Source: an uncultured Erythrobacter sp.
Lineage (GTDB): Bacteria > Pseudomonadota > Alphaproteobacteria > Sphingomonadales > Sphingomonadaceae
Assembly (NCBI GenBank): GCA_947495695.1
Contig: CANLZP010000002.1
Coordinates: forward strand, 620,001-684,000
DNA length: 64,000 nucleotides
Direction: 5' to 3'
The notes beneath the pieces are model-generated. The model ran no database searches and was not told the origin of the DNA. It worked only from the letters and a program-made list of their open reading frames with translations. Shown piece after piece: positions 30,329 to 50,403 of the stretch; positions within the stretch are counted from its first letter, which is position 1, and each line of letters opens with the position of its first letter. The translations under genes were made by a program, and so were the position numbers.

Positions 30329-30360
30329 CGAGGCAAAGCATGCGGCGCTAAGGCGCAGCT

Positions 30361-32607: not shown

Positions 32608-32616
32608 TACGCCTAG

Positions 32617-32696
32617 CCCGTTCATGCTGAGCCTGTCGAAGTACGAACGGGTGGAGCGCAACTGCACTCGCCCTTCGACAAGCTCAGGACGAACGG
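32617..32696. repeat. Intergenic inverted-repeat element after purL
   Basis: Left arm 32618-32641 and right arm 32673-32696 are inverted copies of 24 bases with three mismatches; the core is of the type CCGTTC..CTGAGC..GTCGAAG. A nested hairpin pairs CCCGTTC (32617-32623) with GAACGGG (32645-32651). Elements with this TTCGACAAGCTCAG core are dispersed between genes in many sphingomonads and related bacteria; only one copy is in this window. It could act as a transcript end or processing site after purL. Confidence 0.85.
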
Positions 32697-32699
32697 TGA

Positions 32700-33032
<333 letters not shown>

Positions 33033-33040
33033 GTGACGTC

Positions 33041-33448
33041 ATGACTGCCGGATATTCAGAAACGCCGCTCGCTCAAAAGCTCACTCTGCGCGATGGCCAG
33101 GTGTGTTGGTTTGATGCCATGCCCGAGAATATCATCGACGAAATTGACGAATATGCGCTGGAGCTGCGCTTTGCTTCTGAACCGTTTGAGGGGCTGGACG
33201 CGGCCCATATTTTTGTAACCGAAGAAGACGACTTGACCGCTAAGTTGGAAAATCTGCGTGGGTTGATCGACAAGAAGGGTCAGATCTGGGTCAGCTGGCC
33301 CAAGAAGGGTTCTGGTCGGGAAACCGCCTTAGATCAAGCTGCGGTCCAGCGCATCGGGCTGGCAGCTGGACTGGTTGATACCAAGAAATGCGCCGTAGAC
33401 GAGATTTGGTCCGGCCTCAAATTTGTGATTCCGAAAGCAGACCGATGA
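33041..33448 (+). CDS. DUF3052 family protein
   Basis: A 135-residue soluble protein. GYSETPLAQKLTLRDGQ at the start, WVSWPKKGSGRETALDQ in the second half and DEIWSGLKFVIPK at the end are the DUF3052 signatures. The family is widespread and uncharacterised. The ATG at 33041 gives the conserved start; the frame is open further upstream inside the DUF6122 gene but without similarity. Its stop overlaps the next ATG by four bases (ATGA). Confidence 0.88.
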   Translation: MTAGYSETPLAQKLTLRDGQVCWFDAMPENIIDEIDEYALELRFASEPFEGLDAAHIFVTEEDDLTAKLENLRGLIDKKGQIWVSWPKKGSGRETALDQAAVQRIGLAAGLVDTKKCAVDEIWSGLKFVIPKADR

Positions 33449-34701
33449 ACAGCCAACCGGCAACCGGCGCGCCCGTATCGGGACGGCCCGATACATCTAC
33501 TCTGCTGTTCGTCGCCTTTGTCCTGTTCATCGACATGGTCGGCATCGGACTGATCATTCCAGTCATGCCCGCCCTGCTCGAGACACTAACAGGGCAAGGC
33601 GTGGAGCAAACCGCAGAAATTGGCGGCTGGCTACTGTTTGCCTATGCCGTCATGCAATTCCTGTTTGCTCCGATCATTGGTGGCCTGTCCGATCGCTATG
33701 GCAGACGACCGATATTGCTGTTCACTCTGTTTTTTCTGGGCATTGATTACGCCATTATGGCTTGGGCCCCGGATCTGTGGTGGTTGTTTGTCGGTCGATT
33801 GTTGTCGGGCATCATGGGGGCAAGCTGGGGCGCTGCCAACAGCTGCGTTGCCGATGTTGTCTCGCCGCAAGATCGAGGCCGCTATTTCGGCATTTTGGGC
33901 GGTGCCGCAGCCAGCGGATTTGTTGTAGGACCAGCCATCGGCGGCGTTCTGGGCAGTGTCGATGAGCGCCTGCCATTTGTGGCAGCGGCCATTCTCTCCA
34001 TCACCGTCGCGGCGATTGGCTATTTCATCCTCAAGGAAACGCTGCCGACTGAAAAGCGCCGCCGATTCACCATCGGGCGTGCCAATCCTTTTGGAACGAT
34101 CATCCAGATGGCCCAGACCCCCATCGTGCTCGGCTTTTTGGGTATTATCTTCCTGATGCAGCTGGCTTCCCAATCGACCTTCACCGTTTGGGCTTACTAC
34201 AACGTCCTCGCCTTTGGCTGGAATGAATTGCAGATTGGTTTGAGCATCGCATTTTACGGCCTGCTGCTTGCCATCGTTCAGGGCGGGTTGACCGGCCCAG
34301 CAATCGCGCGCTTCGGCGCCAAATCGACGAGCATGATCGGGTTTGTATTTGCGGTGCCCGCTTATGCCATGTTCGCTTTTGCGCCAGGCGGTTGGACCAT
34401 GCTGGCAGGCATATTGCTGGGCAGCCTTGCCGGCCTCAGTTTTCCGGCCATGCAGCAATTGATGACCGAACGGATCAGCGATAATGCGCAAGGCGAGCTG
34501 CAGGGCGCTATTGCCTCTGTCATCAGCCTGACCAGCATCATCGGGCCCGTTGTCATGACCGGATTGTTTGGCGCTTTTGCCGATGACAAGGGCCTCTATT
34601 TCCCCGGCGCACCGTTCTTGCTCTCGGTCTTTATCCTGTTTGCAGCACTGGCTTTGCTGCGCTGGAATCTTGGCCGAATAACAACCGAGGCCTCTGCTTA
34701 A
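33445..34701 (+). CDS. MFS transporter, TCR/Tet-like exporter
   Basis: A 418-residue major facilitator with 12 predicted helices. Motif A between helices 2 and 3 is GGLSDRYGRRPILL; helix 1 has DMVGIGLIIPVMP and helix 5 the motif C-like GFVVGPAIGGVLG, both typical of drug:H+ antiporters such as TetA. Whether it exports tetracycline is unknown; chromosomal homologues are common and often not resistance genes. It is coupled to the DUF3052 gene by a four-base overlap and its stop overlaps the convergent coq4 stop. Confidence 0.88.
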   Translation: MNSQPATGAPVSGRPDTSTLLFVAFVLFIDMVGIGLIIPVMPALLETLTGQGVEQTAEIGGWLLFAYAVMQFLFAPIIGGLSDRYGRRPILLFTLFFLGIDYAIMAWAPDLWWLFVGRLLSGIMGASWGAANSCVADVVSPQDRGRYFGILGGAAASGFVVGPAIGGVLGSVDERLPFVAAAILSITVAAIGYFILKETLPTEKRRRFTIGRANPFGTIIQMAQTPIVLGFLGIIFLMQLASQSTFTVWAYYNVLAFGWNELQIGLSIAFYGLLLAIVQGGLTGPAIARFGAKSTSMIGFVFAVPAYAMFAFAPGGWTMLAGILLGSLAGLSFPAMQQLMTERISDNAQGELQGAIASVISLTSIIGPVVMTGLFGAFADDKGLYFPGAPFLLSVFILFAALALLRWNLGRITTEASA

Positions 34702-35492
34702 GCTGCAAGAGCCTCTTCCGGCATGCGCATGTCTTCATCGGCAGTGCCCTCGGCAATCATCTGCGCGATACATTGGCGATAAATAACCGGCTCGCCGATA
34801 TTCAACCGCTTGCGCGCTTCATCAATATCTTCGCGCATCAAAGCTTCGATATCTTCATGCGCAATTTTCGCAGCCGCCTTACCCAGACGCCGCCCTTCGC
34901 GGATCGCCTCGAATAAGGGAGCGTTGGTGTCCGATTCCTTCAAGCGCTGCCTGGTTCCGGCATAGGCAATGAACAACACACCCAGATTGTGGTTCTGTTC
35001 ATAGCTAAAGCCGAGCAATGCAGCCTCGCCCAAACCGTCACGGTTATAGCTGGTCAGCACGTGAAACAGATCATGCGTATCGCGCAGCCGTTCAAAATAC
35101 CATTCGGTTTGATCTTGTAGACGCGCTTTCTTGTCCTGCCATTTGTGGCTTTCTGCCACTAGGCCCGCAGCAGATAGACCTTCGCGCTTCATAAACTTCA
35201 TATAGTGCTGAGCGACAGTGTTCGCGCCGCAATCAGCCCAGCGGTTATGATCGTCCAACATAGCCGGCAGATCGACATTCTCGCGCATCATGCGCTGGCC
35301 TTCTGGCGACCGGATGAAATTCCAGCCCTGTTTGTGGCCCTTTTTCCCCTTCAAAGCCTCGATAATATGAAAGACCTGCTCGGTGTCTTCCTTATCCTCG
35401 ACCAATTTGCGGAAATGGTGCAGCACCTTGAACGGGCGGAAACCCGATGTTTTGCGATCTGGATGGACCAGCGGGAGATCAGTAAGAGCCAT
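34698..35492 (-). CDS. coq4: Coq4-family ubiquinone biosynthesis protein
   Basis: A 264-residue protein of the Coq4 family, whose signature is the metal-binding DTHDLFHVLTSYNRDGLGE (HDxxH...E type, about residues 138-156). Coq4 is a ubiquinone biosynthesis protein, recently linked to decarboxylation/hydroxylation of the quinone ring. The ATG at 35492 follows a strong GGAGGT with 5-base spacing and a good promoter lies at 35515-35543. It converges with the MFS gene, overlapping its stop by four bases. Confidence 0.88.
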   Translation of the reverse strand: MALTDLPLVHPDRKTSGFRPFKVLHHFRKLVEDKEDTEQVFHIIEALKGKKGHKQGWNFIRSPEGQRMMRENVDLPAMLDDHNRWADCGANTVAQHYMKFMKREGLSAAGLVAESHKWQDKKARLQDQTEWYFERLRDTHDLFHVLTSYNRDGLGEAALLGFSYEQNHNLGVLFIAYAGTRQRLKESDTNAPLFEAIREGRRLGKAAAKIAHEDIEALMREDIDEARKRLNIGEPVIYRQCIAQMIAEGTADEDMRMPEEALAA

Positions 35493-35514
35493 AATTACCT
35501 CCGTAACGCAGCAC

Positions 35515-35543
35515 TATTTACAGTAATGTTAATAGCCTGTCTA
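35515..35543 (-). promoter_or_regulatory. Candidate sigma-70 promoter of coq4
   Basis: On the minus strand TAGACA (35538-35543) and TAAATA (35515-35520) are 17 bases apart, 22 bases before the coq4 ATG. Spacing is ideal and both boxes are close to consensus. Motif evidence only. Confidence 0.5.
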
Positions 35544-35593
35544 CTTCCTCACATGCGTACTGTCCGCTAGGCTGAGTTGCAGGGAGATTTCAC

Positions 35594-36190
35594 ATGACGA
35601 GACGGTGGCCAATGTGGCTGGGTTTGCTGTTGGGATTAGGCGCCATGCTGCTGCCATTTGTCTTGCAAATCGACTGGGTGACACAATGGCAATTGGCGAC
35701 CCGGTGGACGTCCCGAGTGGGATTCCCTTTGCTAATGCTCGCCTATGTCGCTCGACCACTTGTGCAAATTTGGAGCAATGGGTTTTCGAAAGCATTGCTC
35801 AGCATGCGCAAATACGTTGGCCTTGGATTTGCCTTAAGCCACACAGTCCACCTGTTTGCCTTAGTTTCCTATTTGCAAATCAGCGGCCAGCCCGCGCCTG
35901 TTGCAACACTTTACGGCGGAGGTGCGGGCTATGTCATTTTGTACGCTATGGCATTCACCTCAAACAGATCCGCGATGAAGGCAATGGGAGTTTGGTGGAA
36001 ACGGCTCCATACGCTGGGAATCCACGCACTGTGGTTCATCTATTTGGTGACCTATTCCGGCCGCTTGTTTGATCCTGACACACGCTTGCTGGGTGTGATA
36101 ACCGTTTCTATCCTTGCACTGACAGGAGCTATCAGGCTCAACGCTTGGCTGAAAGCACGTCGCAAAAGGATTCCAGCAAAAGCAATTTAG
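35594..36190 (+). CDS. Ferric-reductase-like transmembrane protein (MsrQ-like)
   Basis: A 198-residue protein with six hydrophobic helices. Histidines lie in pairs expected for haem ligation in the ferric reductase-like domain: SHTVHLFALVSY (helix 3) and LHTLGIHALWFIYL (helix 5). TLYGGGAGYVILYAMAFTSN joins them, and RKYVGLGFA precedes helix 3. Size and layout resemble MsrQ, the haem subunit of the periplasmic methionine sulfoxide reductase, but no msrP is adjacent, so the partner is unknown. It is divergent from coq4. Confidence 0.75.
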   Translation: MTRRWPMWLGLLLGLGAMLLPFVLQIDWVTQWQLATRWTSRVGFPLLMLAYVARPLVQIWSNGFSKALLSMRKYVGLGFALSHTVHLFALVSYLQISGQPAPVATLYGGGAGYVILYAMAFTSNRSAMKAMGVWWKRLHTLGIHALWFIYLVTYSGRLFDPDTRLLGVITVSILALTGAIRLNAWLKARRKRIPAKAI

Positions 36191-37107
36191 CCGCGGATCC
36201 AGTCGCCCTCGGGAATATCCATCAGTTTCAGGATCGAGCTCAAATCACCATAATCGATCCAACCATTGGCAGCTTGGCGCGCTTTGGGCTTGGCACGATA
36301 GGCCAGCCCGAAATCGGCAGCTTCGAGCATCGGGATGTCATTGGCTCCGTCACCTGTTGCCAAAGACACTGCATTGGCGCCTAATTGCTCCAATTCCTCC
36401 AGCAGGACGGCTCGTTTAACCGAGCTGTCCGTAATGGTGCCAACCAATCCGCCCGTAAGCCGGCCACTTGAGACCTCAAGGCGGTTGCCAACCACGCGAT
36501 CAAACCCAAGCTGCTGCGCGATCACATCAGCAAAATGGTGGAACCCACCAGTTACCAGGACCGTTCGGCATCCATGCGCTTTCAGGGTTTGAACCAAAGC
36601 TCGCGCGCCGGGCATGGCGGTAATCCGTTCGGACAAACATTGCTCAATCGCGCCTTCATCCAGACCAGCCAACAGACCAACCCGCTCCAGCAGCGCGCTT
36701 TCAAAGTCGAGTTCGCCCAACATAGCGCGTTCGGTAATGTCGGCGATCTTGTCTTTGATACCCGCATAATCGGCCAACTCGTCAATGCATTCCTGCTCAA
36801 TCATGGTGGAATCCATGTCGGAGACGAACAAACGCGGTACCGTAATGTCCGCGCGCGCAATCAGCACATCGGACGGAGAGAAATGCTGATCCAGCACCTC
36901 GCGCAGTGCCGCTTCGTCACCATCAGGCAGGGACAAATGCAGCGCGCCGCCGTGGTGATCCAGCATGCGAGCCATCGCAACCGGCATTCCGAGCGCCTCC
37001 AAAGCGGCGATAGCCTGTTCAACAGACGTTTCCAGCGACGCAGGGTCTGCTATCAGTCGGGCGATGAGCAAGCGAGAATCTCCAAAACGAACAAGCGTGG
37101 CGCTCAT
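36187..37107 (-). CDS. serB: Phosphoserine phosphatase
   Basis: SerB dephosphorylates phosphoserine, the last step of serine synthesis. The 306-residue HAD enzyme has the nucleophile motif VSDMDSTMIEQE (Asp 97, Asp 99), the threonine/serine motif VLVTGGFHHFAD and the metal motif ATGDGANDIPMLEAADFG. The N-terminal 85 residues are a degenerate ACT-like domain. The ATG at 37107 gives SATLVRFGDSR; this 5' end overlaps the divergent miaA 5' end by 44 bases. Confidence 0.95.
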   Translation of the reverse strand: MSATLVRFGDSRLLIARLIADPASLETSVEQAIAALEALGMPVAMARMLDHHGGALHLSLPDGDEAALREVLDQHFSPSDVLIARADITVPRLFVSDMDSTMIEQECIDELADYAGIKDKIADITERAMLGELDFESALLERVGLLAGLDEGAIEQCLSERITAMPGARALVQTLKAHGCRTVLVTGGFHHFADVIAQQLGFDRVVGNRLEVSSGRLTGGLVGTITDSSVKRAVLLEELEQLGANAVSLATGDGANDIPMLEAADFGLAYRAKPKARQAANGWIDYGDLSSILKLMDIPEGDWIRG

Positions 37108-38011
37108 CGCAGGGCCAACCGCCAGCGGCAAGAGCGATTGCGCGGTTCAGCTTGCCTTGGCTCTGGAAAAGCAGGGTCGAAAGTCCGCTATTATCAATGC
37201 CGACAGCGCGCAAGTCTATGCCGACCTGCAGATATTGAGCGCTCGCCCGACAAGCCAAGAAATGGGCGGGATCGAGCACCGACTGTTCGGAACCTGGGAT
37301 GGCGCGGAGGCATGTTCAGCGGCGGATTGGGCCACCGAGGCCAAGGGAGAGATTGCCGCCTTGCATGCACAAGATGCCGTGCCGATCCTGTGCGGCGGGA
37401 CCGGGATGTATGTCAAAACCTTGCTAGAAGGTATCGCGCCCATTCCAGAGATCACCCCCTCCATTCGCGAGATGGTGCGCAGACTGCCCACACATGATGC
37501 CTATAACGCGCTGGCCGATGAAGACCCCGAGCGCCACGCTGCCCTCGCCCCAAACGATAGCCAGAGGATCGCCCGAGCGTTGGAAGTTGTGCGCTCAACC
37601 GGAAAGCCGATGGAACATTGGCTGAAGCACAAAACGGGCGGCATTGCCGATCAAGTTGAGTTGCATCCCATGATTATGCTGCCCGATCGTGATTGGCTGT
37701 ACGAGCGGTGCGACCGGCGGTTCCTGCTCATGCTGGAGCAAGGCGCGCTGGACGAGGTAGAAAGACTGGTCGCCCGTGACCTAGACCCGGGCCTACCGGT
37801 TATGCGGGCCATCGGCGTGCGTGAAATCGCGGCCTATCTCAGAGCATTGTGCTCGCGAGAGGAAATGGTGGAGCAAGGCCAGCAAGCGACCAGAAATTAC
37901 GCAAAGCGCCAATATACGTGGTTTCGGCGGCAAACGGGTGAGGACTGGCCAAAGGTTGAGTCTCAAAATTGCGACATTGATACAATATTCGCATCATTAT
38001 TACGCAATTAG
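37064..38011 (+). CDS. miaA: tRNA dimethylallyltransferase
   Basis: MiaA puts a dimethylallyl group on A37 of tRNAs that read UNN codons. The 315 residues have the P-loop AGPTASGKS (residues 16-24), NADSAQVYADLQILSARP, the tRNA-contact motif VPILCGGTGMYVKTLLEG and the C-terminal RQYTWFRR-like KRQYTWFRRQ. The ATG at 37064 leaves the normal short N-terminus; because serB starts at 37107 on the other strand, both 5' coding ends overlap. Confidence 0.95.
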   Translation: MSKRESPKRTSVALIAGPTASGKSDCAVQLALALEKQGRKSAIINADSAQVYADLQILSARPTSQEMGGIEHRLFGTWDGAEACSAADWATEAKGEIAALHAQDAVPILCGGTGMYVKTLLEGIAPIPEITPSIREMVRRLPTHDAYNALADEDPERHAALAPNDSQRIARALEVVRSTGKPMEHWLKHKTGGIADQVELHPMIMLPDRDWLYERCDRRFLLMLEQGALDEVERLVARDLDPGLPVMRAIGVREIAAYLRALCSREEMVEQGQQATRNYAKRQYTWFRRQTGEDWPKVESQNCDIDTIFASLLRN

Positions 38012-38141
38012 CGGTTGACACGTTATAAACGAACGCATAGCGGAGGCTTCAACGGCTCGGTGCGCTTTTGCTGCCCCGGGCCTCATTTATTGTTAGAAGC
38101 ACGCATCGCGAATCCGGCATCCGTGCTGCTGATGGAAGGAA

Positions 38142-39905
38142 ATGCAAGTGTCACAGGAGCGCAGCGGCGCAGCTATCCTGGTTAAGTGCCTGGTTGAGCA
38201 AGGGGTCGAATTTGTATTCGGCTATCCCGGCGGCGCGGTGCTGCCCATCTATGACGAACTGTTCGGAGATGAACGCCTACGTCATATTCTTGTGCGGCAT
38301 GAAGCTGGCGCAGCGCATGCAGCCGAAGGCTATGCCCGGTCCACCGGCAAGCCTGGAGTGGTTCTTGTCACATCCGGTCCAGGCGCAACAAACGCCGTTA
38401 CCGGCATTGCCGACGCCTTTATGGATTCGATCCCGATGGTGGTTATCACCGGTCAGGTGCCAACCGCACTGATCGGCACCGATGCCTTTCAGGAAGCCGA
38501 TACGGTTGGCATCACGCGCCACTGCACCAAGCATAATTATCTGGTGAAAGACCCGGACGAGCTTGAAGCCATTTTGCACGAAGCATTTCGCATCGCCACC
38601 AGTGGCCGCCCCGGCCCCGTTGTGGTTGATATCCCCAAGGACGTGCAGATTGCCATCGCTTCCAGCAGCAATGCGGAAGCTTCTCCTGCATCGCATCGCT
38701 ATCAGCCGCAGATGGCTGGCACGGACAGCAAGATTGCCGAAGCTATTGAATTGATGGCCAAGGCCGAGCGGCCGATCCTCTACACCGGCGGCGGCATCAT
38801 TAACTCCGGTCCCGAAGCAAGTCGTTTGCTCCGGCAGTTGCAAGATCTGACCGGCGCGCCCGTCACCAGCACATTGATGGGTTTGGGCGCATTGCCTGCC
38901 GATCATCCCGATTGGCTGGGCATGTTGGGTATGCACGGCACCTTCGAAGCCAATATGGCGATGAACAAATGCGATGTGATGGTTTGCCTCGGTGCTCGCT
39001 TCGACGATCGCGTCACCGGTCGGCTCGATGCGTTTTCTCCAGACAGCAAGAAAATCCACATCGATATCGACCGAGCCAGCATCAATAAGAATGTGCCGGT
39101 TGATCTGGGCATAGTTGGCGATTGCGCGACCGTATTGGGGCAATTGATAGAGGCATGGGGTGATCGCAAACCGCAGGATCTGGGCGAATGGAAAGCCCGC
39201 ATCACGGGCTGGCGAGCCCGCGAATGTCTGGCCTACCCCGAAAAGTCGGCCAAGGATCCCAGCGCCATCATGCCGCAAAAGGCAATCGAACGCCTGTTTG
39301 CGCTTACCAAGGATCGCAATCCGATCATCACGACAGAGGTTGGCCAGCACCAGATGTGGGCAGCCCAATATTTCCATTTCTTCGATCCCAACAAATGGCT
39401 CACGTCAGGCGGCTTGGGAACGATGGGATATGGTCTGCCCGCTGCCATCGGCGCCCAATTGGGTAATCCCGACGATCTGGTAATCGACATTGCTGGCGAA
39501 GCCTCCATTCAGATGAATATTCAAGAGCTTGGAACGGCCAGCCAATACCGCCTGCCGGTCAAGATCTTCGTCCTGAACAATGAGTATATGGGCATGGTCC
39601 GCCAATGGCAGGAACTGACCTATGAAAGCCGCTATTCCAATTCCTATTCTGACAGCCTGCCTGACTTTGTCGCGCTGGCAGAGGCCTATGGGTGGAAAGG
39701 CATCCGGATTGAAGATGGAGTCGATCTGGACGCGGGCATCGAAGCGATGCTGGCCCATGACGGTCCAGTGATCGTCGATTGTATGGTGGCCAAGGATGCC
39801 AATTGTTTCCCGATGATCCCGTCGGGCGCAGCGCATACTGAAATGCTGCTCTATGGTGACCAGGTTGAAGGCACGATGGACGATGAAGCCAAGGCTTTGG
39901 TGTAA
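38142..39905 (+). CDS. ilvB: Acetolactate synthase large subunit
   Basis: The catalytic subunit of acetohydroxyacid synthase, first common enzyme of valine, leucine and isoleucine synthesis. The 587 residues have the ThDP-activating Glu in [16 protein letters not shown] (Glu 54), the central FAD-binding domain, and the C-terminal ThDP site. In that site the usual Gly-Asp of the Mg-binding motif is Gly-Glu (GEASIQMN, Glu 453), with the second ligand Asn in LNNEYMGMV (about 480). GGAAGGA sits only 2 bases from the ATG but 8 from a GTG at 38148, so translation may start at either. It leads ilvB-ilvN-ilvC. Confidence 0.97.
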
Positions 39906-39917
39906 GGACAGATTCTC

Positions 39918-41484
<1,567 letters not shown>

Positions 41485-41494
41485 GTCCAGCCCG

Positions 41495-42103
41495 GTGAGC
41501 ATCATGCAGGATGCTCGCACATTCAAACTGGTCTTGGCGCTATGTGCGCTTGGCTGGGTGGTTATCGTCGCAAAATCGATCCTGAACACTAAGGGTCCGG
41601 AAGACTTTGTGGTGACGGTAACTCCCGGCCATGTGCAAGCCTATGCCAAGCAGCAATTGGGCCAATTGCAGAAACCATCGTTCGATCAGAACACAGAATT
41701 GTGTCAGATAATCTTTGAAGATGGCACTGGCGCTTTGGGAACCAGCCCAATCATCGAGGGCGCTAGGGCCAGCTGCGATATTTTCTATTTTGACGAGCCA
41801 GGAATGGCGCCTGTCGCCAGCCTGCATACGCATGGCGGCTTTGACAGTGAATTTGACAGCGAAGTGCCCTCGGTATTGGATATGGAAAGCGATATTGCCA
41901 GCAGGATGGATGGCTTTGTCGCGACGCCGGGCGGGCGGCTGTGGCGAATTGATTGGGTTGGACAGCAAGCGATCATGGTTTGCGGCACCAATTGTCTTCC
42001 GCAAGACAGCGCATATCGGGCCTGCCCTGCGCATGAGCCCGAACAATCCTATACGCTTGACGCTTTGCGCAGTCGGTTCGAAAACGACTTGGGAGTATGC
42101 TGA
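41495..42103 (+). CDS. DUF4329 (JAB-like) membrane-anchored protein
   Basis: A 202-residue protein with an N-terminal membrane anchor (about 10-27) and an extracytoplasmic domain. SLHTHGGFDSEF followed by VPSVLDMESD reproduces the H-x-H ... S-x2-D zinc site of JAB/MPN-type metallo-isopeptidases (His 111, His 113, Ser 126, Asp 129), the core of DUF4329. Two Cys (70, 94) and two more near the end may form disulfides. Activity and target are unknown. Start may be GTG 41495 or ATG 41504. It lies between ilvC and lldD and overlaps lldD by one base. Confidence 0.78.
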   Translation: MSIMQDARTFKLVLALCALGWVVIVAKSILNTKGPEDFVVTVTPGHVQAYAKQQLGQLQKPSFDQNTELCQIIFEDGTGALGTSPIIEGARASCDIFYFDEPGMAPVASLHTHGGFDSEFDSEVPSVLDMESDIASRMDGFVATPGGRLWRIDWVGQQAIMVCGTNCLPQDSAYRACPAHEPEQSYTLDALRSRFENDLGVC

Positions 42104-43251
42104 TGCGCCTTAGCGATTGCCACAATATCGATGATTTCAGATCGCTCGCCAAAGCGCGGCTGCCGTGGCCTGTGTTCGATTATATCGATGGCGCTGCCGA
42201 TGACGAAGTGACCAAGGCGCGCAATACCGATGCCTATGGCTCGTGCGATCTGGTTCCCGATGTGTTGGCCGGCGTGGCCGAGATCGACACCAGCTGCACC
42301 ATCATGGGCCGCAAAAGCGCCCTGCCCCTGATGCTTAGCCCCACAGCTGTGCAACGAGCCTTTCATCATCAAGGCGAAACCGCTGTTGCCAAGGCGGCGG
42401 AAAAATTCGGCCTGTGGTTCGGCATTTCCAGCCTAGCCACGCGCAGTATTGAAGAGATCGCCGCGCTGACCAACGCCCCCAAGCTGTTCCAACTATATGT
42501 TCACAAGGACAAGGGCTTGAACTCCTCGATGATCGAGCGCTGTCAGGCATCCAATTTCGATGCATTGGCGCTGACGGTGGACACTATTGTGTCCGGCAAG
42601 CGTGAGCGGTGCCTGCGCAGCGGCTTCACCACCCCGCCCCGTTTTACCCCCTCAGCGGTTTGGTCCTACGCCACACGTCCGCGCTGGACGCTGGATTACC
42701 TGTTTCGCAAGAAATTTCGTCTGCCCAATCTGGATACCCATGTCAGCGAAGGCAGCGGAAAAGCCGTCAGCATCGCTGAGTATTTCAACACCATGCTCGA
42801 CACATCGATGGATTGGGACACGGCGGCCAAGATCCGGCAAGATTGGGGCGGCAAGTTCTGTCTGAAGGGCGTGATGAGCGCGAATGATGCTCGGCGTGCA
42901 GTAGAGATTGGGGCCGATGCGATCATGATCTCCAACCATGGTGGCCGCCAGCTGGATGGCAGCCGCGCTCCGTTCGATCAATTGCGCGAAATTGTCGACA
43001 CAGTTGGCGGCGAGATAGAGATCATTTGCGATGGCGGCGTTCGGCGCGGCACGCATGCTTTGAAATCGGTATGCGCCGGTGCCACTGCGGCCAGCGGCGG
43101 CAGACTTTACCTCTATGCGCTTGCGGCAGCCGGGCAGGATGGGGTCGAGCGAGCCATTGGTATCTTGCAAGATGAGATCTCCCGAGGAATGCGCCTGATG
43201 GGCGTCACATCGGTGGATCAGCTCACCCCGGACAGATTGCGCTGGCGATAG
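42103..43251 (+). CDS. lldD: FMN-dependent alpha-hydroxy acid dehydrogenase, L-lactate dehydrogenase type
   Basis: A 382-residue TIM-barrel flavoprotein that oxidises an alpha-hydroxy acid, most likely L-lactate, passing electrons to quinone. Evidence is ARLPWPVFDYIDGAADDE at the start, LMLSPTAVQRAFHHQGE, FQLYVHKDKG, the catalytic-His motif ISNHGGRQLDGSRAP and the FMN-phosphate loop CDGGVRRGTHALKS. GGGAG with 7-base spacing supports the ATG at 42103 over 42097. It overlaps the DUF4329 stop (TGATG). Confidence 0.9.
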   Translation: MRLSDCHNIDDFRSLAKARLPWPVFDYIDGAADDEVTKARNTDAYGSCDLVPDVLAGVAEIDTSCTIMGRKSALPLMLSPTAVQRAFHHQGETAVAKAAEKFGLWFGISSLATRSIEEIAALTNAPKLFQLYVHKDKGLNSSMIERCQASNFDALALTVDTIVSGKRERCLRSGFTTPPRFTPSAVWSYATRPRWTLDYLFRKKFRLPNLDTHVSEGSGKAVSIAEYFNTMLDTSMDWDTAAKIRQDWGGKFCLKGVMSANDARRAVEIGADAIMISNHGGRQLDGSRAPFDQLREIVDTVGGEIEIICDGGVRRGTHALKSVCAGATAASGGRLYLYALAAAGQDGVERAIGILQDEISRGMRLMGVTSVDQLTPDRLRWR

Positions 43252-43260
43252 AACCGACAA

Positions 43261-43288
43261 AGCCCCCGCTCAATTAAGAACAGGGGCT
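43261..43288 (-). terminator. Weak candidate terminator of the YHS lipoprotein gene
   Basis: AGCCCC (43261-43266) and GGGGCT (43283-43288) pair around a 16-base AT-rich loop. Read on the minus strand the stem is followed by TTTGT, a short T-run, 27 bases after the YHS gene stop. It lies between convergent lldD and YHS genes and may slow both. Confidence 0.4.
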
Positions 43289-43315
43289 CAGCCAAATTCA
43301 TGATCTTCGCAGCGA

Positions 43316-43852
43316 TTAGCTGGTGAAGTGTTCGTCCGGCGAGTGGGTCGGGTAGTTTACGTCACCCTTCTCGATAAATCCGGGAATGTCCTTGTTCCAA
43401 CGCTCGGCAACGCCTTCGCTGAAGTTCAGATACAGCTTGCCATCTACAATCTTGTAAACATTGGGATCACCTGGTGCCAGCGCATCATTGGCGCCAATCG
43501 CCCATGCGCAATAGCCGCCATATTGCGGCGCATATTTGGCTGGGTCTGCGCTGAAGGTTTTCGCGTTCTCTTCACTCGAGAAACGATAGTCATAGCCTTG
43601 ATAGTTTACGGTGAACTCTTCTGTTCCTTCAACCGGGCCGCCTTCGGCGTTGAAGTAGCTGACCGCATCATAGCCGCTGAGTGCCAGAGTATCACCGATT
43701 GAAGCGGTGTGAATTGGGCCGGCAGGTGTGCCGCCAAGTTGGGTAAGAGCGCCAGCTTCGACAGCGGCAGTTTCTTGAGCGACATTTTCGCTCCCAGGTG
43801 AACACGCAGCTACCGTTGCCAGCAGAGCGATTGAGATAAGTGACTTGTGCAT
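43316..43852 (-). CDS. YHS domain lipoprotein
   Basis: A 178-residue predicted lipoprotein: basic start, hydrophobic LISIALLATVAAC with lipobox Cys at 17. The YHS domain follows (LSGYDAVSYFNAEGGPVEGT, YRFSSEENAKTFSADPAKYA, PQYGGYCAWAI), a fold often tied to metal or redox functions; the conserved Tyr-Cys-Ala is present. A GTG start further out is ignored because AGGAG lies right before the ATG at 43852. It is divergent from the leuA leader region, 119 bases away. The molecular role is unknown. Confidence 0.88.
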   Translation of the reverse strand: MHKSLISIALLATVAACSPGSENVAQETAAVEAGALTQLGGTPAGPIHTASIGDTLALSGYDAVSYFNAEGGPVEGTEEFTVNYQGYDYRFSSEENAKTFSADPAKYAPQYGGYCAWAIGANDALAPGDPNVYKIVDGKLYLNFSEGVAERWNKDIPGFIEKGDVNYPTHSPDEHFTS

Positions 43853-43971
43853 TGAATTACTCCTGACCGCGTAAGTGCGGGATGCCCACTCTTTCGCAAG
43901 GCGGCGCTGTAAGGTTACACAATTTTTCAATCCGCTTGCCATCTTTGTGGTTTTGGGCGAAGACACGGGTC

Positions 43972-44022
43972 ATGAAACGCATGGCAAACTTACTGCTACG
44001 ACTATCCCGCCCTTGGGCGTAG
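43972..44022 (+). CDS. Candidate leucine leader peptide upstream of leuA
   Basis: A 16-codon frame encodes MKRMANLLLRLSRPWA. Four of residues 7-11 are leucine, read by TTA, CTG, CTA and CTA, of which TTA and CTA are uncommon here. It ends 99 bases before the leuA ATG and its last codons form one arm of a perfect 10-bp inverted repeat. Clustered codons for the pathway's own end product in a short peptide just upstream of leuA are the mark of ribosome-mediated attenuation. The ribosome site is weak (ACGGG close to the ATG), and a second in-frame ATG lies at 43981. Confidence 0.55.
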   Translation: MKRMANLLLRLSRPWA

Positions 44023-44104
44023 GTGGCCGCGTGCTCTGAAGGCGCGGCAAGCGCCCAAGGGAGATTTAGAACGCGCATTTAGCCGCACTTCCTCGTAAAA
44101 TCTC
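44010..44104 (+). promoter_or_regulatory. Candidate attenuator structures between leader peptide and leuA
   Basis: CCCTTGGGCG (44010-44019, the end of the leader peptide frame) is the exact reverse complement of 44052-44061. Nested inside, GCCGCG (44026-44031) pairs with CGCGGC (44043-44048). A following stem pairs GAGATTT (44061-44067) with AAATCTC (44098-44104), six bases before the AAGAG ribosome site of leuA, and GCGGC at 44044-44048 can instead pair with GCCGC at 44082-44086. No strong T-run follows any stem, so control could act on transcription or on leuA translation. Confidence 0.5.
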
Positions 44105-44121
44105 AGTTTAAGAGCTTGCCC

Positions 44122-45792
44122 ATGCCCATGCTTTCCAATCCTTCGCAAAAATACAGCGCATTCCCACAAGTAGATTTGCCTGATCGGCAATGGCCCAGTC
44201 GGACTATCACTGCCCCGCCGCGGTGGCTGTCGACCGATTTGCGCGATGGCAATCAATCGATCATTGACCCGATGGATGCCGTTAAGAAACGGCGCTTTTT
44301 TGAGGAATTGGTCCGAATTGGCGTCAAAGAAATCGAAGTGGGTTTCCCCAGTGCGGGAGCCACCGAATTTGACTTCATTCAAGGTCTGGTCCGCTCGGGT
44401 GATATTCCCGATGATGTGACGGTGCAGGTCCTCACACAAAGCCGCGAAGATCTGATCCGCACCAGCTTTGAAAGCTTGGATGGCGCCAAAAGCGCCATTG
44501 TTCATTTGTACAATGCTGTCAGCCCGGCATGGCGCGACATCGTGTTCCGGATGAGCAAGGATGAAGTGCGCAAGATCGCCCGAGACGGCGCCATGGTGAT
44601 GCGAGACGAGGCGGCCAAGCGACCAGACACCGATTGGCACTTCCAATACTCGCCCGAGACATTCTCGACCGCAGAATTGGATTTCAGCATCGCAGTCTGC
44701 GAAACCGTGATGGAGGTTCTCGAACCGACACCAGACAAACCAATCATCCTCAATCTGCCCGCAACGGTAGAGGCTGCAACTCCCAATATCTACGCCGACC
44801 AAATCGAGTATTTCTGCCGCAATCTGCCAAATCGTGACAGCGCCATCATCAGCCTGCACACGCACAATGATCGCGGAACAGGCGTGGCCGCTGCGGAATT
44901 GGGCCTGATGGCAGGGGCAGACCGGGTTGAAGGTTGTCTGTTCGGTAATGGCGAGCGGACCGGCAATTGTTGCTTGGTCACAGTTGCTCTTAACTTATAC
45001 ACTCAGGGCATTGATCCTAAATTGGATTTCTCTGACATTGATCGTGTCATTGAAACGGTGGAATACTGTAACGAGTTGCCCGTGCATCAGCGCCACCCCT
45101 ATGGTGGTGAGCTGGTGTTCACTGCCTTTTCCGGGTCGCATCAAGATGCGATCAAGAAGGGCTTTGAGGCGAACAGCCAGCAGAATGACGAACAATGGCG
45201 CGTGCCATATCTCCCCATCGATCCAGCCGATTTGGGTCGGGATTATGAGGCAGTAATCCGAGTAAACTCGCAAAGCGGTAAAGGCGGCTTTGCCTGGGTT
45301 CTGGAGCAGGATCAGGGTCTCAAACTGCCTAAGAAGATGCAGGCCGACTTCTCAAAACAGGTTCAGAACTTGGCCGATGAATTGGGCCGCGAACTGAATG
45401 CAGACGACATCTGGGAAGCATTTAAGTCCAGTTATCATGTCCAGACACCGGATAAACACTTCCAATTGGTCAGCTATGAAGAAAGCCGCGGGTCCGACGG
45501 GACACGTCTGTTTGCCGGCACAATTGCTGTGGCGGGCCAAGAACAGAGCGTTAGCGGTCGCGGAAACGGCCTAATTTCGTCGGTAGTCAGCACGATCGAA
45601 GACACATTTGGGCTGGAGATCAAAGTGCTCGATTATAGCGAGCATGCTTTGGGATCTGGCCGCGACGCGCGCGCGGCGGCTTATTTGCACTGCCAATCCG
45701 GTGGAAAGCAATTCTGGGGCTGCGGGATTGACGAGGACGTCGCAACTGCATCTGTCAGAGCCGTGCTGAGTGCTGCAAATAGTGCAATTTAA
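44122..45792 (+). CDS. leuA: 2-isopropylmalate synthase
   Basis: LeuA condenses acetyl-CoA with 2-ketoisovalerate, the committed step to leucine. The 556 residues are the longer type (LeuA2, as in yeast and actinobacteria): [16 protein letters not shown] holds the catalytic Arg-Asp, [18 protein letters not shown] the HxH metal ligands, [19 protein letters not shown] follows, and the C-terminal 130 residues are the leucine-binding regulatory domain. AAGAG with 7-base spacing supports the ATG at 44122 over TTG 44116. Regulation is likely by the upstream leader peptide. Confidence 0.96.
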
Positions 45793-45907
45793 TGGCTTTT
45801 ACTGCGCCAAGCATTGTTTAACAGAGCATTAGTCATTCTGTAAGTATCTACTACTATAGTTCCACTAGGGTTCATTGAGATCACAGGGAACAATTGACGC
45901 GCGCATT

Positions 45908-48148
45908 ATGGCTAATGCTCAAGCATCATCTGGCAAACAAACGGCGCGCGGCGGTTCAACGCTGGGTGCCTTGTCGCGCTGGAAGAATGACCGGTCCCTA
46001 TCTCGAGAGCAAATCGCTCTGTTCCTTGACTATGAAGATTCCGGTCTTGCCTGGTTCTGGGCAACCGACAGCGATGGCGCATTAACCTACGTATCGCAGC
46101 AGGCGGCCGCATCTTTAGACAGCGATGTTGAAGAATTGATCGGCAGGCCACTCAATGCACTGGTCGATCTGAGAACTGTTTCTGAAAATGATATGTCTTC
46201 AGAAGCTGCCACTGGCCGCAATGTAGAATTTCTGCTCCGGGCCAAGAATACTTTTACCCATAAAGAGGTGCGCACAAGGCTGGGCACCGAAGAGGCCTGG
46301 TGGTCGATCAGTGGAAGGCCGCAATTTGATTCAGCCGGAACATTTATTGGCTATCGCGGCAACGCTAGCGATGTAACCATTCAGCGCCGCGAGCGAGCGG
46401 ATACAACCCGCCTTTCGCAATTTGATTCCCTTACTGGTTTGGCCAACCGCGTGCGCATGAGCACGCGCCTGCAAATCCTATTGACGGGCTACAAAGTGGC
46501 TCAAAGGCCATGCAGTTTGCTGATGTTGGATTTGGACCGGTTCAAACACATCAATGATACCTTGGGGCACCCGACTGGAGACGCTTTGCTGCAGCAAGTT
46601 GCCCAAAGATTGCAGCGCATTGTGGGCAGCAAAGGTGAAATAGGACGGCTGGGCGGAGACGAGTTTCAAATCTTCATCCCAGATGAAGACGATCGCAGCG
46701 AACTTGGGAATCTGGCAAATCACATAATCCAATTGTTGTCCCAGCCCTATGTGATTGAAGGCAATAGCTGCGTTATTGGTGCCTCAGTTGGCATTGCCAT
46801 CGCACCGTTTGACGGGGAAGATGTCGATGATCTTGTCCGCAGTGCCGATCTGGCGCTGTATGCAGCCAAAGCCGGAGGGCGCGGTCAATTCCGCTTCTAT
46901 TCGAGCGACCTGCATAGCCGCGCAGAAGAACGCCGCTTGATCGAGGAAGATTTGCGGCGCGCGATCCCTGAAGGCGCGCTGGAATTGCATTATCAGCCTT
47001 TGACATGCCCCCAAACCAACCAGGTCAAATCCTTCGAAGCTTTGCTGCGCTGGAACCATCCCGAAAGAGGTTGGATGAGTCCGGACATCGTCATCTCTGT
47101 GGCCGAAGAAACCGGCTTGATCGTTCCCTTGGGCGAATGGGCAATCCGCCAGGCATGCGATGATGCTGCGCTGTGGCCAGAGGACATTAGGGTCGCGGTG
47201 AACGTATCACCTGTTCAATTCATGACCGAAAACCTAGCCGGGGTGGTGACGAGCGCTTTGGCCAATTCTGGTTTGCAGCCACACCGGCTCGAATTGGAGA
47301 TCACCGAGAGCGTATTCTTGGGCGATACGGATGGCACCACTCGCCGGTTCCAGTCGCTGAAAGAGCTTGGCATTCGCTTCGCACTGGATGACTTTGGAAC
47401 GGGCTATTCCTCGCTCGGCTACTTGCGTGATGCTCCGTTTGACAAAATCAAAATCGATCAGAGCTTTATTCGGGGCGCGGTCGATAACAGCGTGCGCGGC
47501 AACGCGGCCATTATTGCTGCGATTGTTGGGTTAGCAAACTCCCTCGGAATGGAAACCACAGCCGAAGGGATTGAGGCCATCGACGAATTGGACTTCGTGC
47601 GATCCCAAGGTGTCACCAGCGTTCAAGGCTATATCTACGGCAAAGCCACGCCTAATACCCAAGTTCTGGAAATGGTCGAAAACGATGTTATCGAACTCGT
47701 CCCCAAAGGACCGAGCAGAGCGCGATCAAACCGCCGAACTGTGCTGCGCAAGGTAGGCCTGATCCATGATGATTATCGATACGAAGTGACAATGCGCGAT
47801 CTGTCTCAGACCGGCGCTCGTCTTCAGGGCCTGTGCGATGTCCCTGTTGGCACGCGCTTCATTGTCGACTTTGGAGATGGGCAGACCGTGGGCGCGGAAG
47901 TCCGGCGCGCAGTCGATGACTGGATTGGTGTCGAATTTGAAGAGCATTTGACCAGTGATGGTGGCGGGGATTGGTGCACCAAGCAGCGCGCGCCCAGCCG
48001 CTCAGATGGTCATTCAAAAATCGCGCGCGTTGCGGGCCAACCGTCGGCCTTAGTAAATGACCAGGGCACAGCCGAGGTTGAACTGCAGGAAATCGAAGAA
48101 CCCAAAACTCAACCAAGGTTTCGCCAAAGTTCGCCTCAGGAAGATTGA
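45908..48148 (+). CDS. PAS-GGDEF-EAL-PilZ cyclic-di-GMP protein
   Basis: A 746-residue cytoplasmic protein with no membrane segment. Order: disordered start, PAS-like sensor (about 45-155), GGDEF domain (DSLTGLANR near 173, intact RLGGDEF near 247-253), EAL domain (FEALLRWNH near 377, DDFGTGYSSLGYL, KIDQSFI) and a C-terminal PilZ-like domain (RSNRR then DLSQTGARLQG and WIGVEFEEH, about 610-690). Both the cyclase and phosphodiesterase motifs look complete, so it may make, break and bind cyclic-di-GMP. The upstream TTG at 45875 is an alternative start. Confidence 0.9.
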   Translation: MANAQASSGKQTARGGSTLGALSRWKNDRSLSREQIALFLDYEDSGLAWFWATDSDGALTYVSQQAAASLDSDVEELIGRPLNALVDLRTVSENDMSSEAATGRNVEFLLRAKNTFTHKEVRTRLGTEEAWWSISGRPQFDSAGTFIGYRGNASDVTIQRRERADTTRLSQFDSLTGLANRVRMSTRLQILLTGYKVAQRPCSLLMLDLDRFKHINDTLGHPTGDALLQQVAQRLQRIVGSKGEIGRLGGDEFQIFIPDEDDRSELGNLANHIIQLLSQPYVIEGNSCVIGASVGIAIAPFDGEDVDDLVRSADLALYAAKAGGRGQFRFYSSDLHSRAEERRLIEEDLRRAIPEGALELHYQPLTCPQTNQVKSFEALLRWNHPERGWMSPDIVISVAEETGLIVPLGEWAIRQACDDAALWPEDIRVAVNVSPVQFMTENLAGVVTSALANSGLQPHRLELEITESVFLGDTDGTTRRFQSLKELGIRFALDDFGTGYSSLGYLRDAPFDKIKIDQSFIRGAVDNSVRGNAAIIAAIVGLANSLGMETTAEGIEAIDELDFVRSQGVTSVQGYIYGKATPNTQVLEMVENDVIELVPKGPSRARSNRRTVLRKVGLIHDDYRYEVTMRDLSQTGARLQGLCDVPVGTRFIVDFGDGQTVGAEVRRAVDDWIGVEFEEHLTSDGGGDWCTKQRAPSRSDGHSKIARVAGQPSALVNDQGTAEVELQEIEEPKTQPRFRQSSPQED

Positions 48149-48261
48149 TCGGCCCAACGCTCCGGTCATCCATATCAGCCACTTGATGGAACTCTCTCAA
48201 AATGAGAGTGTCAAAAAACTGTCGTTCCAACAAGAACGCAGCCTGACCAAGGGATGTGTGC

Positions 48262-49305
48262 ATGGCTGAAGAAATTCTCGAACCTGATCTGCAGATTATT
48301 GATCCGCATCACCATTTTTGGGATCTTCGTCCCATGGTGCCGATGTTTCCGAAGCCTCGCCATAGGTTCATCGAGACTATTGTTCCCACCGCCTATTACA
48401 ACTTTGACCATTTGCGCGGTGACATTGAAACAGGCCACAACGTGATCGCCACGGTGTTTATGGAATGCGGCGCGTTTTATCGTGCCGACACGACAGATGA
48501 CATGAAAGTGATTGGCGAAGTTGAATATGTAAATGGTGTCGCAGCCCAGTCCGCCAGCGGGCTCTATGGCAATTTGCGCGCCTGTGCCGGTATTGTCGGG
48601 CATGCGGACTTGATGCTGGGAGACGGAGCAGGACCCGTGTTGGAGCGCCTGCAAAGCGCTGCCCCGGACCGGTTTAGAGGCATCCGATACGCAGCGGCAT
48701 GGGACGCTGACCCCGAAGTCTTGGGGGTGCCCATCCAAAAGGTTGAGGGTTTGTATCGTGAAACAGCTTTTCGCGAAGGGTTTGCTCATTTGGGCAAGAT
48801 GGGCCTGACGTTCGATGCCTGGATTGTCGAGCCGCAAATCCCCGATGTGATCGATCTGGCTAGGGCGTTCCCTGATCAACCGATTTGCCTAGATCACTGC
48901 GGCACGCCGCTTGGCATGGCGTCCTACGAGGGGCGACTGGAAGAGCGCTTTGATATCTGGCGCTCCAATATTCTGGAGCTGGGCAAATGTGAAAACGTCA
49001 GCATAAAGCTGGGCGGACTGGCGATGCATAATTGCGCCATGCCGGCACAAGGTCCGGCAGCAGGCGTGGGATCAGAGGAACTGGCCGCAATGTGGCGGCC
49101 CTATATCGAAACCTGTATCGAATCCTTTGGAACGCGCCGCGCGATGTTTGAAAGCAATTATCCGGTGGATCGTTGGGGTGCGACATACCCCGTCCTGTGG
49201 AACGCTTTTAAACGGATAACATCTGGCGCAAGTGCCGCTGAAAAGCATGACCTCTATTCCAACACAGCCGCTCGGTTTTACAGTCTGGATCAATTCCTCA
49301 ACTAA
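48262..49305 (+). CDS. Amidohydrolase family protein (amidohydrolase 2 type)
   Basis: A 347-residue TIM-barrel metal hydrolase. QIIDPHHHFWD at the start has the HxH pair of the amidohydrolase-2 group; the later ligands are in ICLDHCGTP and FESNYPVD. Relatives act on lactones and on decarboxylation substrates; the substrate here is unknown. AAGGGA with 7-base spacing supports the ATG at 48262. It is followed by a nitronate monooxygenase-like gene 114 bases on, which may belong to the same catabolic function. Confidence 0.82.
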   Translation: MAEEILEPDLQIIDPHHHFWDLRPMVPMFPKPRHRFIETIVPTAYYNFDHLRGDIETGHNVIATVFMECGAFYRADTTDDMKVIGEVEYVNGVAAQSASGLYGNLRACAGIVGHADLMLGDGAGPVLERLQSAAPDRFRGIRYAAAWDADPEVLGVPIQKVEGLYRETAFREGFAHLGKMGLTFDAWIVEPQIPDVIDLARAFPDQPICLDHCGTPLGMASYEGRLEERFDIWRSNILELGKCENVSIKLGGLAMHNCAMPAQGPAAGVGSEELAAMWRPYIETCIESFGTRRAMFESNYPVDRWGATYPVLWNAFKRITSGASAAEKHDLYSNTAARFYSLDQFLN

Positions 49306-49419
49306 GGTGACGCTACGGCATCTTGATGCTGCGCGTCCCTAGCACATTCGCTCTCTCGACAGGCGCCGATCGGCTGCCTAAGCGAAAGCGATTACGAACA
49401 AGTTCCAACGGAGTTTTGC

Positions 49420-50403
49420 ATGTCCCTACCCGCACCATTTGATCGCCTGCGCCTTCCTCTGATCGGATCGCCCTTGTTCATCGTGTCGGGCCCGGAATTG
49501 GTCATCGCTCAATGTAAGGCGGGCATCATCGGCAGCTTCCCATCGCTCAACGCTCGGCCGCAAAGTCTGTTGGACGAATGGCTGCATCAGATCACCGAAG
49601 AACTGGCCAAGCACAATCGGGAAAACCCTGACAAGCCCGCTGCGCCCTTCGCCGTTAATCAGATCGTTCATAAGACGAATGACCGGGTCGATGCGGATAT
49701 GGCAACGTGCGAGAAGTGGCAGGTGCCTATGATCATCACATCGCTCGGCGCGCGCACCGAATTGTTTGACGCTGTTCGTAATTGGGGCGGCATCACAATG
49801 CATGATGTGATCAACAATCGATTTGCCAGAAAGGCGATTGAAAAGGGCGCTGATGGGTTGATCCCCGTGGCCGCTGGCGCTGGCGGGCATGCTGGGGCAT
49901 TGTCGCCCTTCGCACTGATGCAGGAAATCCGCGAATGGTTTGACGGCTTGGTGGCTTTGTCTGGGTCAATCGCCAATGGCTACTCCATATTGGCTGCCCA
50001 GGCGATGGGCGCAGACTTTGGCTATGCCGGAAGCGCCTTTATTGCGACCGAAGAAGCCAATGCTACCCAAGGGTATAAAGAAGGCATTGTCGGCGGCAGC
50101 TCAGAGGGAATTGTCTACACTAACCTGTTCACGGGTGTGCACGGCAATTACTTGCGTTCAAGCATTGAACAAGCTGGTCTGGATCCTGATGATCTGCCCG
50201 TTAGCGACCCCAGCAAGATGAATTTTGGCAGCGGCGGCAATACCAAAGCCAAAGCGTGGAAAGATATCTGGGGATCGGGCCAAGGCGTGGGTGCCATCAA
50301 GAGCGTCGGCACGGTTGAAGACTTGGTCGCACGCATGGAGGCGGAATATCACGCTGCCAAAGCCGAATTGATTGCCAAGTCAAACTACACCAGTTGGAAA
50401 TAA
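49420..50403 (+). CDS. Nitronate monooxygenase-like FMN oxidoreductase
   Basis: A 327-residue TIM-barrel flavoprotein of the NMO/2-nitropropane dioxygenase family. FDRLRLPLIGSPLFIVSGPE opens it, PVAAGAGGHAGALSPFALMQ carries the Gly-rich phosphate site and the His that acts as base in the class, and SGSIANGYSILAAQAMGADF plus GSAFIATEEANA complete the FMN site. Natural substrate unknown (propionate 3-nitronate in characterised cases). Confidence 0.87.
   Translation: MSLPAPFDRLRLPLIGSPLFIVSGPELVIAQCKAGIIGSFPSLNARPQSLLDEWLHQITEELAKHNRENPDKPAAPFAVNQIVHKTNDRVDADMATCEKWQVPMIITSLGARTELFDAVRNWGGITMHDVINNRFARKAIEKGADGLIPVAAGAGGHAGALSPFALMQEIREWFDGLVALSGSIANGYSILAAQAMGADFGYAGSAFIATEEANATQGYKEGIVGGSSEGIVYTNLFTGVHGNYLRSSIEQAGLDPDDLPVSDPSKMNFGSGGNTKAKAWKDIWGSGQGVGAIKSVGTVEDLVARMEAEYHAAKAELIAKSNYTSWK

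Follow-up and report, generated by a model that had tools for sequence, protein, structure and literature searches.

The leuA locus and its leader

The window (that is, the whole stretch of 64,000 nucleotides analysed here) carries a leuA gene whose product is a 2-isopropylmalate synthase of the yeast/actinobacterial type (805.5 bits against the family model, cut-off 697.4), preceded by a short leader ORF and a hairpin, P1, with a divergent gene for a YHS-domain protein flanking the leader on its other side (Table 1). The leader codons are ATG AAA CGC ATG GCA AAC TTA CTG CTA CGA CTA TCC CGC CCT TGG GCG TAG, and 99 bases lie between the leader stop and the leuA ATG. The initial annotation of this DNA had described this leucine-rich frame of 16 codons at that distance from leuA, together with an exact 10-bp inverted repeat, and all of its coordinates agree with the letters of the window, the two arms of the repeat (P1) being perfectly complementary. 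The sensor core of the leader departs from the class consensus at two places, CTA for CTT and T for A, and the CUA found here retains a rare leucine codon (CTA accounts for 4.2% of the Leu codons in the window) at the leucine position of the core. A relaxed core pattern has a single copy in the genome. Should Met39 (43852) be the start of the YHS-domain gene, both promoters would have to fit into the roughly 119 bases separating the two ORFs.

Table 1. Features of the leuA leader region, in window positions
Feature	Position	Strand	Basis
Predicted leader promoter, -35-like hexamer TTGCCA	43936..43941	+	position match in relatives, inferred
-10-like hexamer GAAGAC, weak	43959..43964	+	A-rich block in relatives
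Leader ORF, 16 aa, MKRMANLLLRLSRPWA + TAG	43972..44022	+	window letters
Sensor core CTA CGA CTA T	43996..44005	+	class consensus CTN CGA CTT A
P1 5' arm CCCTTGGGCG, within last leader codons	44010..44019	+	shuffle, covariation, de novo prediction
P1 3' arm CGCCCAAGGG	44052..44061	+	covariation
P1-to-ribosome-site segment, possible Rho loading site	44062..44109	+	base composition
leuA ribosome site AAGAG, 7 nt before ATG 44122	44110..44114	+	window letters
leuA, 2-isopropylmalate synthase, yeast/actinobacterial type	44122..45792	+	TIGR00970

An in-frame ATG 12-60 nt upstream of the core was found in 99 of 118 sequences, the 19 without one being mostly distant loci, and where there was a single candidate (74 sequences) the ATG lay 24 or 27 nt upstream of the CTN codon in 65 cases (24 nt in the window). 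These 74 sequences showed no Shine-Dalgarno sequence before the leader ATG; they had T at -36, T or G at -35 and an A-rich block at about -13 to -11 before it, the -10-like block lying about 10 nt from the ATG. This arrangement suggests that transcription may start at or next to the leader ATG, that is, that the ORF is leaderless in the order. The leader-start counts come from a first set of 118 records, which missed 22 loci because the LeuA motif used disallowed DMRDGN (9 of the 22 inspected), and the same set underlies the mean T counts after P1 and the stalling, frameshift, P1-swap, duplex-energy, C-bias and segment-accessibility tests described below; the key counts were redone on 139 records, with none missed.

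A fixed codon pair and next base in close relatives

As relatives we took 80 leuA loci selected solely on LeuA similarity, and the leader core was found in all 80 of them, 104-151 bases upstream of the matched LeuA start in 78 (L067 being the 79th and L040 the 80th). Codon counts use 79 of the 80 loci, with L040, whose copy reads CGA CTT A, left outside since that copy precedes a run of Ns. CGA was present in 79/79 relatives although it makes up only 6.6% of the Arg codons across these loci, and the codon after it was CTT in 77 and CTA in 2, CTT being 13.8% of the Leu codons in the same loci. The base after CTT was A in 79/79, opening a codon that encodes T, I, M or S, and the codon following this A-initial codon was invariably CGC (79/79). 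The codon before CGA was CTT (31), CTA (23), CTG (23), TTT (1) or TTG (1), and never CTC (0/79), though CTC represents 30% of Leu codons. At the peptide level, the relatives share LRL-x-RP followed by WA (54), a stop (20) or R (5), with LRL in 78/79 (FRL in one) and RP in 79/79, and the four codons preceding the CTN codon encode Leu in 59, 47, 30 and 34 of the 79.

Hairpin P1

A perfect Watson-Crick partner for the 5' arm of P1 in the window arose in 0.02% of 20,000 shuffles (80 bases searched). The folding energy of the whole leader RNA in the window was no better than that of shuffles (z -0.94), and hence the structural signal lies in P1 and its covariation and not in overall energy. In an alignment (A1) of 43 diverse copies, 98.1% of 430 P1 cells were paired, a percentage that is favoured because the 43 rows were picked from 53 representatives, all of them preselected for at least 9 of 10 P1 pairs; across all 53 representatives, 515 of 530 cells were paired. 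The alignment is without L011, L035, L044, L123, L169, L170, L171, L174, L191 and L193, several of which have awkward loops, an odd register or only 9 of 10 pairs, and their omission gives a slight bias towards P1. Six of the ten pairs vary on both sides among the 43 copies, the covariation score was 0.400 vs. 0.234 for shuffled data (0 of 500 shuffles as high) and at most 0.196 for slid versions of the helix, and RNAalifold predicted P1 de novo. A swap test used 52 representatives for which the sole criteria were the leader core and LeuA after it; 38 of them had a perfect 10/10 P1 partner, compared to 4.6 with arms swapped between types and 0.2 when shuffled.

The initial annotation had proposed this element as a candidate leucine leader peptide, to be checked in relatives by conserved Leu codons and compensatory changes in the stems. 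Close relatives do retain both the Leu codons and the pairing, with compensatory changes in P1, and therefore leucine sensing by the leader peptide is well supported, with leuA presumably responding to leucine. The nested and alternative stems that the same annotation had placed after the repeat fared differently: they are present in the letters of the window (e.g., GAGATTT at 44061-44067 with AAATCTC at 44098-44104), but they are not conserved, the sequence downstream of P1 varying among relatives.

Distribution across Alphaproteobacteria

Among 196 genomes of the order, 81 have a 17-mer pattern, CTNCGACTTANNCGCCC, always as a single copy (5 genomes for the reversed-pattern control), 80 of these belonging to the family of the window and the 81st (L106) being without P1. 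Across the class, the 17-mer was found in 19 of 289 genomes (vs. 8 for the control). Sixteen of the 19 lie outside the family of the window, and all 16 of these matches precede a LeuA-like gene; family models applied to 10 of the 16 placed all 10 above the 2-isopropylmalate synthase cut-off, nine as bacterial-type and one as yeast-type. At the phylum level, 24 of 398 genomes matched, including two beyond the class (L185, L186). These two and L106 were set aside as 17-mer matches without a 9/10 P1 partner, as were L146 (looser pattern) and the repeats L081 and L153; L163 is a genuine copy and has a P1 of its own (CCCTTAAGGC), but it was excluded from the counts, without good reason.

A motif-independent sample was also assembled, consisting of the 400 bases upstream of 88 leuA candidates from profile hits, two Sphingomonad loci being excluded. 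CGACTTA was found upstream of 32 of 48 yeast-type alphaproteobacterial candidates (0.8 when shuffled) and of 13 of 40 bacterial-type candidates (0.7 when shuffled), the latter set resting on weak profile hits and possibly including related non-leuA synthases; the heptamer was absent before 16/48 and 27/40, respectively, and on the opposite strand it was found in 1/48 and 0/40. An open leader frame in the CGA-CTT phase was present at 61 of 62 CGACTTA sites, vs. 37 of 124 for the other phases. Two or more CGACTTA leaders precede 16 of the 48 yeast-type genes, and in such paired leaders the distal one typically ends like LRLxxPxL and the proximal one like LRLIGGxRA. Individual examples include SLRLIRP before leuA in Sphingomonas parapaucimobilis, and ALRLSRGRRA (Rhizobium sp. 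AB2/73) and ALRLTGGRRA (Shinella sumterensis) before plasmid leuA genes. Judged from sequence, the leader and its RNA hairpin are kept across many Alphaproteobacteria, beyond Sphingomonadales. By eye, and with looser cases included, two CGACT-core leaders were seen before yeast-type leuA in L142, L144-L148, L151, L158-L162, L164, L165, L227, L229, L230, L237 and L246.

The segment after P1

The initial annotation had remarked on the lack of a clear T-run, and this holds well beyond the window: just 12 of 139 element copies have at least 5 T within 10 bases after P1, and the mean number of T there is at background (1.98 vs. 2.13 expected). T-tailed hairpins in window positions 30000-49999 (20 kb) were no commoner than chance (17 vs. 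20.6 expected), and therefore the missing T-run says little in this genome. This hints that U-tract terminators play little part in the lineage. The search for a conserved antiterminator found none, P1 being the only general helix and a second helix, P0 (below), being restricted to 13 of 75 representatives.

The pre-leuA segment in the order is rich in C (0.34) relative to G (0.20), with C exceeding G in 47 of 49 representatives but in only 93 of the 203 upstream regions used for comparison (p 1e-14), and in 67 of 73 representatives in the enlarged set. The bias is weaker in distant Alphaproteobacteria (12/15, p 0.017) and only mild in the window, whose segment of 48 bases comprises 12 C, 8 G, 13 A and 15 T. 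The segment is less structured than other upstream regions (-0.10 vs. -0.25 kcal per base). The order thus has, downstream of the leader, the kind of C-rich, G-poor and weakly structured segment on which Rho would load, and a rho gene is present. Compared to its own shuffles the segment is no more open, the low structure following from composition, and simulated stalling left its accessibility about the same (0.503 to 0.494, p 0.23); for these reasons, folding fails to show P1 switching Rho, and a connection between the two is conjectural.

Two minor observations concern the same region. Between leader and leuA, the +2 frame was open as far as leuA in 3 of 41 representatives vs. 13.7 expected, i.e., closed more often than in shuffles, and frame 0 was likewise closed more often than in shuffles. 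Further, leaders ending in LRLTRP-stop (e.g., L049, L050, L074) are accompanied by a hairpin with a CTTGCC loop immediately upstream of the leuA ribosome site, and by eye this loop might base-pair with that ribosome site, around AAGG.

A proposed mechanism and its alternatives

Taken together, we think that leuA is probably controlled by leucine-sensing, ribosome-mediated attenuation with a non-canonical output. That is, the short leader ORF would be translated, probably from an mRNA starting at or next to its AUG, and its Leu codons would lead the ribosome to a terminal Arg-Leu pair (CGA-CUU as the rule of the class, CGA-CUA here). When charged leucine tRNA is scarce, the ribosome would wait at this pair with its front covering the 5' arm of P1, so that P1 would not form and leuA would be on; when leucine is ample, the ribosome would reach the stop beside or inside the 5' arm of P1 and leave, P1 would form, and leuA would be off. 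What we infer in this scheme is that the ribosome stalls, in which direction control acts and what the output is. As to the output in this order, we would first guess at Rho-dependent termination within the C-rich segment downstream of P1, tentatively and at somewhat less than even probability, with translational masking and a non-canonical intrinsic stop both possible but doubtful.

A translational rather than transcriptional form of attenuation, which the initial annotation had left open, would rest on base pairing of the leader sequence CUNCGAC with a GUCGN'A(G) that overlaps the leuA ribosome site or lies upstream of it; the pairing would mask the ribosome site until stalling on the leader sets it free, an arrangement like the one proposed for the actinobacterial LEU element. 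Such a second helix (P0, formed by leader CUNCGAC and GUCGN'A upstream of leuA) occurs in 13 of 75 representatives (2.8 expected), and wherever GTCGN'A follows P1, N' is complementary to the leader's wobble base N (13/13 representatives, permutation p 5e-05). In the leuA start window, CGN'AG matches N in 9 of 11 cases (p 0.013) and CGAG is found in 29/75 representatives vs. 30/241 control starts in relatives, GGAG being rare there (2/75 vs. 46/241). However, 62 of the 75 representatives are without GTCGN'A, and by duplex energy the core binds its own leuA start region no more strongly than the start regions of other genes (mean percentile 0.555; 7/64 in the best 5%). Shuffling that start region makes no clear difference either (0.460, p 0.14, although 14/64 are in the best 5%), and the actual wobble base is not favoured (p 0.63). 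Moreover, a simulated stalled ribosome produced no consistent opening of the leuA start among 118 sequences (mean change +0.016; more than 0.1 up in 21 and more than 0.1 down in 13). Since the stalling simulation and the duplex energies were both negative, general masking of the leuA start was rejected; pairing of CGACTTA with a downstream partner was likewise rejected as a general cause, its reverse complement not being enriched in the motif-independent sample. Hence, we consider translational attenuation unlikely as the explanation of the element, a purely translational general rule being unsupported and a translational form being possible in the P0 lineages. Because P0 is real where present but is restricted to these lineages, a single conserved sensor may be coupled to different outputs in different lineages. 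P1 could also serve as an intrinsic terminator despite its poor U-tract, giving transcription attenuation of the kind known from the leu operon of E. coli. This appears quite unlikely to us: P1 is GC-rich, widespread and at a terminator-like position, and the few copies with T-runs would fit, but T after P1 is at background and no conserved antiterminator was found.

Other explanations were weighed as well. TnaC senses tryptophan by nascent-peptide arrest, and a comparable arrest sensing a free metabolite, in which LRLxRP close to the stop would cause the arrest, would account for the near-invariance of LRL and RP in the relatives; we nonetheless regard it as very unlikely, given that outside the 79 relatives the residues after LRL vary freely (I, T, S, M, R; then, e.g., GGxRA, xxP or xxPxL) and that the constraint acts on codons plus one base, which a peptide would not need. 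Conservation at the base level, which extends to the A even though the amino acid encoded there varies, is in turn consistent with CGACTTA being a binding site for a trans-acting protein or RNA and the ORF being incidental, but the open frame in the same codon phase at nearly all sites and the frequent Leu just upstream make this highly improbable. Finally, +1 frameshifting at CUU-A, as it takes place in Ty1, was considered and found unsupported, since 34 of 41 representatives have a +1 frame without a stop across P1 vs. a shuffled expectation of 29.7, and 18 of 41 have one open to leuA vs. 16.0 expected; a match of CGACUU to 16S rRNA was considered and dropped because the conserved A does not fit.

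CGA would be decoded by an inosine-A wobble and CUU by a G-U wobble. Because the codon phase is kept while the peptide varies, we favour slow decoding of CGA followed by slow decoding of CUU, with a context effect of the next base, as the reason for the fixed core. It is conceivable, if on balance rather doubtful, that CGA-CUU-A is an ancient, dedicated decoding trap that turns one codon step into a leucine sensor, kept across Alphaproteobacteria while peptide, hairpin sequence, output and LeuA type changed, and doubled in tandem in one third of the sampled yeast-type leuA genes. Leader-peptide attenuators are usually viewed as fast-evolving runs rich in Leu, Trp or His, and here a fixed codon pair and next base persists across much of a class, before two LeuA types and often twice. 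Such a core points to a decoding rule testable by single synonymous changes, would provide a searchable signature of unannotated leucine control in Alphaproteobacteria, and presents a probable case of attenuation without a U-tract.

Relation to known attenuators

The leu operon attenuator of E. coli and Salmonella (leuL) has, in the parts of the source available, a Leu-codon leader peptide upstream of leuA (PMC6123439). The element described here is like leuL in having such a leader before leuA and in that stalling would alter a hairpin (PMC6123439, same parts), so that of the classical features the Leu leader ORF directly before leuA and the hairpin are found and the U-tract is not. Unlike leuL, it has no U-tract and no conserved antiterminator was found; in addition, its Arg-Leu codon pair and the base after it are fixed, and no leader 5' UTR is predicted. 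The actinobacterial LEU element, according to the text passages compared, combines a Leu leader ORF before leuA with base-stem pairing near the ribosome site and a conserved pseudoknot (PMC1262725); the likeness lies in the Leu leader ORF and in the pairing of leader codons near the leuA ribosome site in some lineages (PMC1262725, same passages). In contrast to the LEU element, P1 here overlaps the leader end and covaries, and the base stem is not general; a CGA-CTT-A core is not mentioned for the LEU element in those passages (PMC1262725). Among Alphaproteobacteria, the accessible portion of the work on Sinorhizobium trpL describes a leaderless leader ORF (PMC10117765), similar to what is predicted here, although the trpL/rnTrpL attenuator concerns tryptophan and trpE and gives rise to an attenuator-derived sRNA (PMC10117765, same portion). 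The Caulobacter ilvBN attenuator shares a branched-chain leader peptide with the present element but, in the excerpts available, uses Ile/Val codons and a Rho-independent terminator hairpin (PMC4117421).

Rfam gave no match at gathering score over the element in the window or in 17 loci, and no match on the window stretch even at E up to 5. The open papers, as far as they were searched, contained no description of this alphaproteobacterial leuA element, and an earlier prediction may exist (Vitreschak et al. 2004). Because a U-tract and a general base stem are missing, no conserved antiterminator was found and Rfam is without a match, we view the element as a variant of the known attenuators rather than as identical to one of them. 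It would work like a leu attenuator and resembles the actinobacterial LEU element, and matches neither fully.

Leaders outside the main set show further variation. Two actinobacterial leuA leaders (L253, L254; GLLLSCR and GLLLLSCR) end their Leu run in CTT-A, i.e., the last Leu codon plus the next base, as in the alphaproteobacterial core, and the leuA leader of Cupriavidus (L255) reads SLLLALPIGCRA. The leuA leaders of S. meliloti, Shinella sp. PSBB067 and R. leguminosarum differ, reading SLLLLGL(I/T)RGCRV. Leaders with a Leu run before leuA were thus also seen in actinobacteria, Cupriavidus and Rhizobiaceae (L248, L249, L256), the last Leu codon and next base of the rhizobial leaders likewise being CTT-A. 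By eye, the leuA start of R. leguminosarum holds CGAGGAG, the complement of CTCCTCG in its leader. Record CP090106.1 (L248), labelled pSymB, is 3.7 Mb long and carries leuA, a size that suggests a mislabelled chromosome.
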